37,547 nucleotides of DNA from Candidatus Parcubacteria bacterium. GTDB lineage: Bacteria; Patescibacteriota; Minisyncoccia; Phycocordibacterales; JAACPR01. Below the pieces are notes generated by a model. It was not told where the DNA came from, searched no databases, and saw only the letters and a program-made list of their open reading frames with translations. This document shows, in pieces, positions 20,957-25,328 of this stretch. The translations under genes and the position numbers were made by a program. Positions within the stretch are counted from its first letter, which is position 1, and each line of letters opens with the position of its first letter. The stretch covers positions 1 through 37,547 of the forward strand of contig JAACPR010000007.1 in NCBI GenBank assembly GCA_009995365.1, read 5' to 3'.

Positions 20957-21652
20957 ATGAAAAAAATCATAATAATTATCATCGCAGTTGTCGCTTTAAT
21001 TTTACTAGCTTTCCAAGCCGGTCTATTTTCTTTTACAAATCAAACTGATCAAGCAGAAGAAGTTCAGAATGATACAAATAATACACCATCTGAAACAGCT
21101 TCGATTTCAGAATCTTTCCAAAATGAAAATACCGAGACTTATCAAATCGTAGATCAATCAACCGTTTCATACACGGCTCAAAAAGAATTCTTCTCAAAAC
21201 CAACAGAGGCGGTGGTAGGAACTACAAACGATGTTGATGGTCAAATTTATATTAATGATCAAGAGAATAAAATATCAGTTGCAGCAGAAATAAATCCTCA
21301 AACCTTAAATTCAGGAAGCGGAGGTCGTGATAATTATGTTAGTGACCTTTTTGGTTCCAATATATCTGTGATTACAGAAGAGATTGATTTAGGTTCTGAC
21401 TTTAATCTTGATTTAGAAAATGGATCAGAAAACCAAATTTCTTTTTCTGCACCGATTTCAATTACAATAAATGGTGTTACCAATTCTGAAATTTTCGAAA
21501 TTTCAGGAACTGTTACAGAAGGTCGGGCTACATTTAGTGGTTCTACTCAGACAACAATTTCTAGTTACGGTATTACAACACCATCAGCTGCCGGAATTTA
21601 CACCGTCAATGATAATATTGAAATATCTTTTGATTTAGTTGCTGAGAGATAA
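20957..21652 (+). CDS. YceI-family secreted protein
   Basis: Signal/TM anchor; STVSYTAQKEFFSKPTEAVVGTTNDVDGQIYIND...NYVSDLFGSN...ISFSAPISITINGVT. Confidence 0.88.
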   Translation: MKKIIIIIIAVVALILLAFQAGLFSFTNQTDQAEEVQNDTNNTPSETASISESFQNENTETYQIVDQSTVSYTAQKEFFSKPTEAVVGTTNDVDGQIYINDQENKISVAAEINPQTLNSGSGGRDNYVSDLFGSNISVITEEIDLGSDFNLDLENGSENQISFSAPISITINGVTNSEIFEISGTVTEGRATFSGSTQTTISSYGITTPSAAGIYTVNDNIEISFDLVAER

Positions 21653-22149: not shown

Positions 22150-23094
22150 ATGAAAAATATAATTATTACAATTGTTGTTATTTTATTATTAGGTATTGGA
22201 GGGTATTTATTATTAGGTAATTCCAGTGAAACTACTTATGATGGGCAATCAAACCAAGAGTCTCAACAAGTAGATGAACAATCACCAGAGCAAGATGATG
22301 CCGAGGAAAATGAAGAAGAAATTTCTGATCAAGATTACGACAACCAATCACCGTTATCTGTTATTGGTAAATCAGTCGAAGGTCGAGATATTAAAGCTTA
22401 TCATTATGGAAATGGCGAAACAGAAATATTATTTGTTGGCGGGATACATGGTGGCTACTCATGGAATACTTCTTTAGTTGCATACGAACTAATTGATTAT
22501 TTTGATGAGAATCCACAAGTTATTCCTGAAAATGTTAAAGCTACAGTCATTCCCGTTTTAAACCCTGATGGTTTAGAGGAAATTATTGGCACAGCTGACA
22601 AATTTACAACTTCACAAGCTTCGGACGTATCTCTTTCTGAATCAATTCCAGGACGTTTTAATTCAAACGATGTTGATTTGAATAGAAACTTTGACTGTGA
22701 TTGGCAATCAGTTGGCACATGGCAAGATCGTGAAGTTGATGGTGGTAATGAACCTTTTTCAGAACCAGAAAGTCAGGCTATTAAAAATTACATAGAAGGA
22801 GCTAATCCTCAGGCTGTAATCGTTTGGTATAGCTCTGCAGGTGGTGTGTATTCATCAAGTTGCCACAATGGTGTTCTGTCGGAAACTAGAGATCTTACAA
22901 ATACTTTTGCTGATGCATCAGGCTACACTCCTTTTGAAGAATTTAATTTTTACGAAATTACAGGTGATATGGTTAATTGGTTAGCAAAAGAAGGAATCCC
23001 AGCAATTAGTGTCCTCCTTACTACACACGAAGGGATTGAGTGGACAAAAAATAGAGATGGAGTTGAAGCAATTCTAGATTATTACGCTGAATAA
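22150..23094 (+). CDS. M14-like carboxypeptidase homolog, probable pseudoenzyme
   Basis: GGIHGGYSWNT, VDLNRNFDCDW framework retained; catalytic positions substituted relative to the adjacent paralog. Confidence 0.85.
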   Translation: MKNIIITIVVILLLGIGGYLLLGNSSETTYDGQSNQESQQVDEQSPEQDDAEENEEEISDQDYDNQSPLSVIGKSVEGRDIKAYHYGNGETEILFVGGIHGGYSWNTSLVAYELIDYFDENPQVIPENVKATVIPVLNPDGLEEIIGTADKFTTSQASDVSLSESIPGRFNSNDVDLNRNFDCDWQSVGTWQDREVDGGNEPFSEPESQAIKNYIEGANPQAVIVWYSSAGGVYSSSCHNGVLSETRDLTNTFADASGYTPFEEFNFYEITGDMVNWLAKEGIPAISVLLTTHEGIEWTKNRDGVEAILDYYAE

Positions 23095-23111
23095 AAACAA
23101 TAAAAATAATA

Positions 23112-24005
23112 ATGGATATAAAGAAGGTAACAATAATTATATTAACTGCAATAATTGTGTTGGCTTTGGCGGTTTTCTTTATTTTTAAAAGTGAAACAGA
23201 AATTTTGGAAATAGAAGAAACAGTCGATCAGGAAATAATACAAGAAGAGGCTTCCTTAATAAATAAAAAAAATATCGGCTATTCTGTTGAAGGTAGAGAA
23301 ATTGAGGCGTATGAATTTGGTGGTGGTGATAAAAAACTACTATTCGTTGGTGGAATTCATGGCGGGTATGAATGGAATACGGTTGTCTTGGCCTATCAAA
23401 TGATTGATTACTTTGAGAATAATATTGATTTAGTTCCAACAGATGTTTCTATCTCTATAATTCCGTCTTTGAATCCTGACGGTGTATATGATGTTATTGG
23501 TGTTAGCGGTAGGTTTACTGCTTTGGATGTCCCTAAAGTTGTGGGAGAAGCTGGTCTCGGTAGGTTTAATTCCCATGGTGTTGATTTGAACAGAAATTTT
23601 GATTGTAAATGGTCGCCTGAGAGTAATTGGAGAGGGAATGTTGTTAGTGCGGGGGAAGGGCCGTTTTCAGAGCCAGAGGCCGCAACTCTGCGTGATTATG
23701 TTTATGAAAAAAAACCAGATGCAGCTGTTTTCTGGCATAGTAAAGCAAATACAGTTTATGCTTCTGAGTGTGAAAATGGAATTTTGGAACAGACACTAGA
23801 TATAATGAACTTATACGCTACGGCGGGCCAGTATAATTCTGTCGAATTCTTTGATGCATATCCCATCACTGGTGATGTAGAAGGATGGCTCGCTTCAGTT
23901 GGAGTTCCTGCTATTACTGTTGAGTTAGAGACTCATGAGACAGTAGAATTTGATCGTAACTTGGCAGGCGTCAAATCACTGATTGATTACTATTCAAATA
24001 TTTAA
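23112..24005 (+). CDS. M14-family zinc carboxypeptidase-like protein
   Basis: GGIHGGYEWNT, VDLNRNFDCKW, VFWHSKANTVYAS, ITVELETHETVEF. Confidence 0.9.
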   Translation: MDIKKVTIIILTAIIVLALAVFFIFKSETEILEIEETVDQEIIQEEASLINKKNIGYSVEGREIEAYEFGGGDKKLLFVGGIHGGYEWNTVVLAYQMIDYFENNIDLVPTDVSISIIPSLNPDGVYDVIGVSGRFTALDVPKVVGEAGLGRFNSHGVDLNRNFDCKWSPESNWRGNVVSAGEGPFSEPEAATLRDYVYEKKPDAAVFWHSKANTVYASECENGILEQTLDIMNLYATAGQYNSVEFFDAYPITGDVEGWLASVGVPAITVELETHETVEFDRNLAGVKSLIDYYSNI

Positions 24006-24284: not shown

Positions 24285-25328
24285 ATGAAAAAAGTAATAC
24301 TAGTACTAATTTTGATCGCTTTGTTGATTTCGCTTTGGTTTTTATTTGAAAACATAAATAAGGATAGACAAAATAGAGATAAAAATGGCGATAGTGATAT
24401 TGTCGAAACAATACAATATATGAATCCTGAGTATTCGTTTTCATTGGAATATCCAGAAGCTTGGCAAAATTTTACTTCAGCTGAAGAAATAACGCCCAAA
24501 TTTAATTTTTATTCAAGTGTTGGGGATTTAACTTCCGAAGAATTACCTTTTGATCATTTCGTCAACGAGACACACGTATCAGTTTATCCAGAAGGTATTC
24601 CGACAGAAGGAATTTTTGGTCAATCTGTTAGTATTGAAGAAAGTGGAATAGAATTTCCTTATGAATTAACAACAGATTCAAAAGTATTTGTTTTAGAAAA
24701 CGGCGAGCCTTTTGCTGCTTATTTAAAACCTTTAGAGAGCCCAGACAATTGGAATAGCTCAGGTTTTATTTTTGCTAAGGTAAAAATTAATAATCTTGAA
24801 ACAGTTTGTGAAAGAGATGGTCAAATAATTTCAGAGCAAGAAGGGTGCGATCCACTTGTTTTGGGAGATCAGATAATTAGAAATGGAGATATTGATACAA
24901 AATTATGGATTGATGCTGTCGAAGCTGTAGAATCATTTGAATTTACATCAGAAATTTCTAATAAAAATGATTTAGATGATGATTTTGTGCAAAATGAAAA
25001 TATAATTGTTAGCAGTCCACAACCTGGTCAAATAATATCTAGTCCATTAGAACTTGAGGGGGAAGTTAAGGGGAGCTGGTTATTTGAAGCTACTGCCCCT
25101 GTCGTTTTGACCGATTGGGATGGAAGAATAATTGCAGAAAGCTACATTGAAACTGATCAAAATTGGATGACGACAGATTTTGTTTCATTTAGTGGTCTAA
25201 TAGAATTTGAAACTCCAGAGGATATCGGGGACTTTTCTGATAAGGGAACAATTATTTTCCAAAAATCAAACCCATCAGGTCTTCCAGAAAATGACGATGC
25301 ATTAGAATTTGATGTTTTGTTTAGGTAA
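24285..25328 (+). CDS. secreted protein with C-terminal Gmad2-like (Ig-like) domain
   Basis: N-terminal TM; IIVSSPQPGQIISSPLELEGEVKGSWLFEATAPVVLTDWDGRIIAE...WMTTDFVSFSGLIEF. Confidence 0.8.
   Translation: MKKVILVLILIALLISLWFLFENINKDRQNRDKNGDSDIVETIQYMNPEYSFSLEYPEAWQNFTSAEEITPKFNFYSSVGDLTSEELPFDHFVNETHVSVYPEGIPTEGIFGQSVSIEESGIEFPYELTTDSKVFVLENGEPFAAYLKPLESPDNWNSSGFIFAKVKINNLETVCERDGQIISEQEGCDPLVLGDQIIRNGDIDTKLWIDAVEAVESFEFTSEISNKNDLDDDFVQNENIIVSSPQPGQIISSPLELEGEVKGSWLFEATAPVVLTDWDGRIIAESYIETDQNWMTTDFVSFSGLIEFETPEDIGDFSDKGTIIFQKSNPSGLPENDDALEFDVLFR

Follow-up and report, generated by a model that had tools for sequence, protein, structure and literature searches.

Two adjacent genes of a Patescibacterium encode paralogous M14 peptidases, of which the upstream one has lost residues of the catalytic machinery and kept those that would grip the C-terminus of a peptide. 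They lie at 22150-24005 of the window, by which we mean the whole stretch of 37,547 nucleotides analysed here. This lasting association, seen in over 80 species, suggests a pair made of a reader and a cutter, probably acting on the cell wall. We give an even chance to the reading in which the two membrane-anchored, extracytoplasmic proteins form an enzyme and pseudoenzyme pair whose upstream member is a subunit binding C-termini, probably those of peptidoglycan. For brevity, we call the upstream protein the dead copy, after its residues, and its sister the live copy.

The tandem M14 arrangement claimed by an earlier, sequence-only reading of this DNA is borne out by both reading frames, by the similarity of the two proteins, and by their domains and folds (Table 1). 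The upstream frame is intact and clean, and its product is 48% identical to the downstream protein over 242 aa. Both match the M14 profile PF00246 above its cut-off of 21.6 bits (E-values of 1.6e-20 for the dead copy and 1.5e-20 for the live one). The AlphaFold models have mean pLDDT values of 87.9 (dead) and 92.8 (live), and for both the nearest solved structures found by Foldseek are carboxypeptidase A/T and MpaA, with a probability of 1.00 to carboxypeptidases.

Table 1. Features of the tandem M14 genes, in window coordinates. Counts refer to 81 loci.
Feature	Position	Strand	Evidence or conservation
Dead M14 paralog (putative pseudo-carboxypeptidase), 314 aa	22150..23094	+	ORF, PF00246, AlphaFold M14 fold, without His196/Glu270 equivalents
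N-terminal membrane anchor helix, dead copy residues 2-22	22153..22215	+	hydrophobic sequence, helix in model
HGGYS, first zinc motif of dead copy in the HxxxE form, with His retained and Ser replacing Glu	22447..22461	+	
Arg169, Arg127 equivalent retained in dead copy	22654..22656	+	R in 81/81 dead and live
Asn178-Arg179, Asn144-Arg145 carboxylate clamp of dead copy	22681..22686	+	N and R in 81/81 dead and live
Cys183, dead copy (partner Cys238, 22861-22863)	22696..22698	+	conserved pair, possible disulfide
Tyr227, replacing third zinc ligand His196, dead copy	22828..22830	+	
Tyr268, Tyr248 equivalent, dead copy	22951..22953	+	80/81 dead, 80/81 live
Leu289, replacing general base Glu270, dead copy	23014..23016	+	
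17-bp junction between dead and live genes	23095..23111	.	
Live M14 paralog, 297 aa	23112..24005	+	ORF, PF00246, AlphaFold; H83, E87, H209, E271 kept
N-terminal membrane anchor helix, live copy residues 3-26	23118..23189	+	hydrophobic sequence, helix in model

We numbered the functional positions (H69, Glu72, Arg127, Asn144, Arg145, His196, Tyr248, and Glu270) as in bovine carboxypeptidase A and counted residues over 81 loci, i.e., the window and 80 fetched relatives. The dead copy has Ser104 (codon TCA, 22459-22461), Tyr227 (TAT, from 22828), and Leu289 (CTC, from 23014) where the live copy has Glu87, His209, and Glu271. Two of these substitutions, the zinc-ligand histidine to tyrosine and the catalytic glutamate to leucine, had been placed exactly by the earlier reading, and both sites are altered in every upstream copy: position 196 is Y in 76, F in 4, and N in 1, and position 270 is L in 79 and I in 2. 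The live copies have H at position 196 in 81/81 and E at position 270 in 80/81, the remaining one being truncated at its end. The codon of the third change, Glu to Ser at position 72, was also read correctly, but this is the weakest of the three: dead copies have E in 46 loci, S in 25, A in 7, G in 2, and T in 1, and live copies have E in all 81. Because the first glutamate is retained in 46/81 dead copies, we rejected its replacement as a defining loss. The H69 equivalent is kept in all copies of both kinds (81/81 each). The live copy thus carries the H69, E72, H196, and E270 of an M14 enzyme (81/81, 81/81, 81/81, and 80/81), albeit with HxxxE spacing, and is predicted to be active. The dead copy lacks this set, from which we infer that the normal means of holding a catalytic zinc and activating water have been lost.

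The equivalents of Arg127, Asn144, Arg145, and Tyr248 are retained in the dead copy while His196 and Glu270 are gone. The dead copy thus appears to have kept the residues that grip a carboxylate and to have lost those that cut. The Arg127 equivalent was aligned with the arginine of carboxypeptidase N, and its assignment also relies on the position of this arginine in regulatory carboxypeptidases, nine residues before Asn144; the Tyr248 equivalent was aligned in the carboxypeptidase T alignments. The retention of these residues could serve folding and not ligand binding.

The two copies also share features that set them apart from other M14 proteins. The zinc motif HGGYE (HxxxE) occurs in both and is one residue longer than the usual HxxE, which is the form in all 17 of the single M14 proteins of other Patescibacteria in our alignment (e.g., HGSE and HGNE). 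In the AlphaFold model of the live copy, a helix begins directly after H83, a start that would put the histidine and the glutamate one turn apart. A cysteine pair (C165 and C220 in live numbering) is present in 81/81 dead and 81/81 live copies, and its first position has no cysteine in the single M14 relatives. Other residues are fixed specifically in the dead copies: D166 (81/81), N258 (80/81), K262 (80/81), and H221 (73/81), all in live numbering. Such dead-specific fixation would agree with a new catalytic site made of Tyr209, Asp166, His221, Asn258, Lys262, and His275 (live numbering). We regard this as very doubtful, since H275 is common to the live copy and we know of no chemistry that fits this set of residues.

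A scan of genome contigs with the upstream protein gave the 80 relatives, and all named lineages among them are Patescibacteria. Both genes were found in 80/80, on one strand and in the same order, the upstream one always being of the dead type. Between the dead stop and the first live ATG, the median gap is -1 bp, with no more than 60 bp in 79/81 loci. We also analysed a separate whole-genome sample of 397 genomes of the window's order, which is not fully independent of the first set because species are probably common to both; 95 of these genomes match, and 82 of the 95 have exactly two matches. The 13 exceptions are 8 cuts at contig ends, 2 genomes of a solo lineage (G393 and G643), one in which a frameshift breaks the dead copy (G706), one with a very divergent pair (G418), and one with two full pairs (G697). 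Other orders of this class have pairs too (G836, G941, G1001, and G1013), and 17 genomes from outside the order in a phylum-wide sample have single M14 proteins only. The pair is thus syntenic in essentially all relatives. Among 162 ORFs we found no fusion of the two M14 domains, which would have argued directly for contact, and viral and plasmid collections gave no close relatives. In other Patescibacteria (L089-L112), a single C-terminal M14 domain is found in membrane proteins of 480-680 aa, some with Big_5 Ig-like domains; in those of 640 aa, a lone M14 domain follows domains of other kinds (in L102, Big_5 Ig-like) and there is no second M14 domain.

In the two solo genomes the live-like copy has no dead sister, and therefore a relative of the enzyme can occur by itself. 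The copy of G393 (L143, contig C27) is complete in its catalytic residues, and no dead gene flanks it for ~1.2 kb in either direction. That of G643 (L147, contig C75, 780-2048) reads HGGNQWN, with the glutamate zinc ligand replaced by glutamine and the third histidine and the glutamate base kept.

Patescibacteria live attached to hosts, and both copies are membrane anchored and extracytoplasmic. The dead copy might then be an independent binder of peptides or surfaces (a receptor, adhesin, or decoy) that is merely co-expressed with the enzyme. A precedent is domain III of CPD, an inactive M14 domain that serves as a virus receptor (PMC11266112). We consider such independence unlikely: we saw no clear case of a dead copy lacking its live sister in the 80 relatives or in the 397 genomes of the order, and the only frequent close neighbour besides the sister is a cell-wall carboxypeptidase (see below). 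The earlier suggestion that the dead copy is a binding protein or a regulator of its neighbour fits the strict pairing and the near-zero gap, and it is from these that we infer a partner role.

Selection on the two genes was estimated with a counting method on the seven pairs with dS < 1 in both. The dN/dS ratio is 0.07-0.15 in the dead gene versus 0.11-0.25 in the live one, and mean identity is 60% within dead copies versus 58% within live copies. Purifying selection on the dead copy is as strong as on the live one. The grounds for refutation given with the earlier reading fail: H196 and E270 stay absent from every upstream ortholog, and this copy shows no decay. With an intact frame, purifying selection, and catalytic residues lost in 81/81 loci, the proposal of a retained pseudoenzyme is supported. 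In the minimal genomes of these organisms, a useless duplicate should vanish. The only sign of a recent pseudogene or an assembly artefact comes from G706 (L142, L150, and L156 on contig C53), where the dead copy is frameshifted into frames of 247 and 92 aa next to an intact live copy, by sequencing error or local decay. As a general explanation this has practically no probability and is refuted by intact frames under purifying selection in 81 genomes.

In the trees, the dead copies form one group and the live copies another (the live group with weaker support, 66/98, in the second tree). There is no sign of gene conversion between the copies, whose identity is 46.9% within the same genome versus 46.0% between genomes. 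Nor is there a clear sign that dead and live copies co-evolve within a genome, as judged by a correlation of 0.44 between identity matrices, a weak test. The simplest account is one old duplication followed by joint inheritance.

The genome G418 encodes a very divergent tandem M14 pair with reversed gene order (L149, contig C6, 11250-13069). The live-like copy of this pair retains H and E; in the dead-like one, tyrosine replaces the histidine and valine replaces Glu270, and R, NR, and Y are kept. The longer zinc motif is present here too (HTGKE and HAGAE). The two copies are each other's sisters (100/99), and placing the dead one in the common dead clade was rejected (AU test, p = 1.1e-5), the G418 branch being long (2.19 changes per column). 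As read from the sequences of this one genome on its long branch, the G418 pair is an apparently independent duplication in which the same two sites were inactivated.

The repetition in G418 bears on another explanation, namely that the dead copy binds no peptide itself and serves as a structural or allosteric subunit, contacting the live enzyme through a protein interface and so stabilising or activating it. The strict pairing and the coupling of the genes agree with it, as do analogues such as Csd1/Csd2, MPP alpha/beta, and the degenerate LytM activators. It does not predict the retention of the clamp in 81/81 copies beside a complete loss of the residues for catalysis, or the same pattern in the independent G418 pair, and we hold it to be somewhat unlikely.

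We found no universal neighbour gene across the 81 loci. Besides the sister, neighbours recur in at most 22/81, the commonest being a large cluster of ABC-ATPase type ~3 kb away. A larger conserved operon was rejected: VanY alone combines frequency with proximity. This M15B carboxypeptidase (PF02557) is encoded in 20/81 loci, on either side of the pair and mostly no more than 210 bp from it. VanY is nearly single copy in the whole-genome sample (72/77 genomes have it). Of ~72 genomes with the pair there, 17, from at least 10 family codes, have VanY within 2 kb of it, when ~0.65 would be expected by chance, an expectation that ignores the shared ancestry of the genomes. In the window's own genome, VanY is on another contig (C20) and not beside the pair; because of this, the link applies there only by analogy. 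Enzymes of the VanY Pfam family (PF02557), to which LdcB belongs, act on stem peptides of the cell wall. LdcB trims the C-termini of these peptides (PMC4087270). Two other genes lie close to the pair in the window. Just downstream (24285-25328) is a protein with a Gmad2 domain (PF10648); members of its cluster, which is itself loosely linked, lie near the pair, on either side, in 19/81 loci. At 20957-21652 is a membrane-anchored protein that by eye resembles a YceI-type domain and has no significant Pfam match.

We propose that the downstream protein would be a zinc carboxypeptidase, extracytoplasmic and anchored in the membrane, and that the upstream protein may grip the C-terminal carboxylate of a peptide with its Arg127/Asn144/Arg145/Tyr248 clamp. 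It would most likely serve as the subunit that binds C-termini, docking, presenting, or sensing the free C-terminus of the substrate in cooperation with its active sister, with which it probably forms a heterodimer. As substrate we favour the stem peptide of peptidoglycan, the most likely candidate, which the VanY-type carboxypeptidase often encoded nearby would help to trim. Against this reading stand the possible role of the clamp residues in folding, the lack of a clear sign of co-evolution, the two solo genomes, and the proximity of VanY in no more than about a quarter of genomes, the window's own not among them. A more specific version, which we put forward tentatively as a possible description, is an obligate two-subunit M14 carboxypeptidase in Patescibacteria of the Paceibacteria type, whose zinc-free subunit reads the carboxylate of the stem peptide, which works with a VanY-type enzyme, and which arose at least twice. 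An inactive enzyme that is deeply conserved, with catalysis lost and the clamp cleanly kept, would provide a testable case for the retention of inactive paralogs. It would also give access to the remodelling of cell walls in Patescibacteria, which are largely uncultured.

Pairs of enzymes and pseudoenzymes are familiar from eukaryotes and from some bacterial cell-wall systems. Our literature search, whose scope excluded subscription journals and preprints, found neither a bacterial M14 pseudoenzyme nor an account of this pair, an absence of evidence. The closest bacterial folds in the PDB, MpaA (a murein tripeptide amidase) and carboxypeptidase T, are single active proteins with HxxE, and the MpaA equivalog model NF007897 gives the two copies 26.6 and 28.8 bits, against a cut-off of 157. 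VanY/LdcB (M15B), the neighbour in about a quarter of the loci, has another fold and family and is a partner gene, not a homologue. The window's proteins are paralogous and genetically linked, with one member inactive as judged from its residues. In this they resemble Csd1/Csd2 of Helicobacter pylori (M23B), in which a zinc-bearing cell-wall peptidase heterodimerises with a homologue whose set of metal ligands is incomplete (PMC5053510). Unlike here, where a heterodimer is predicted, that one was shown; it is of an unrelated fold (LytM/M23B) and dimerises through a separate helical domain. The alpha and beta subunits of MPP and the two-gene operons of prokaryotic M16B peptidases (PMC11266112) likewise pair active and inactive paralogous metallopeptidase subunits, but MPP is an M16 clamshell endopeptidase with no sequence relation to the M14 pair. 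Csd1/Csd2 and MPP are thus best taken as analogies of principle between unrelated proteins. Within M14, a 2024 review lists five pseudopeptidases: CPD domain III, AEBP1/ACLP, CPXM1, CPXM2, and Ecm14 (PMC11266112, Table 2). Like the dead copy, these eukaryotic proteins have the M14 fold and have lost catalytic residues, and CPD even joins active and inactive domains in one chain; unlike them, the pair is bacterial, is encoded by two separate genes, and has no transthyretin or discoidin domain. All five have lost Arg145 (to T, E, H, N, and H, in the order named); CPXM1 and Ecm14 still have the full set of three zinc ligands, AEBP1 and CPXM2 two of them (PMC11266112). The dead copy, in contrast, keeps Arg145 and Arg127 (81/81) and loses His196 and Glu270. 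If our reading is true, it would represent a class of pseudopeptidases that loses the metal and keeps the substrate clamp, the opposite of the five M14 cases in the review.
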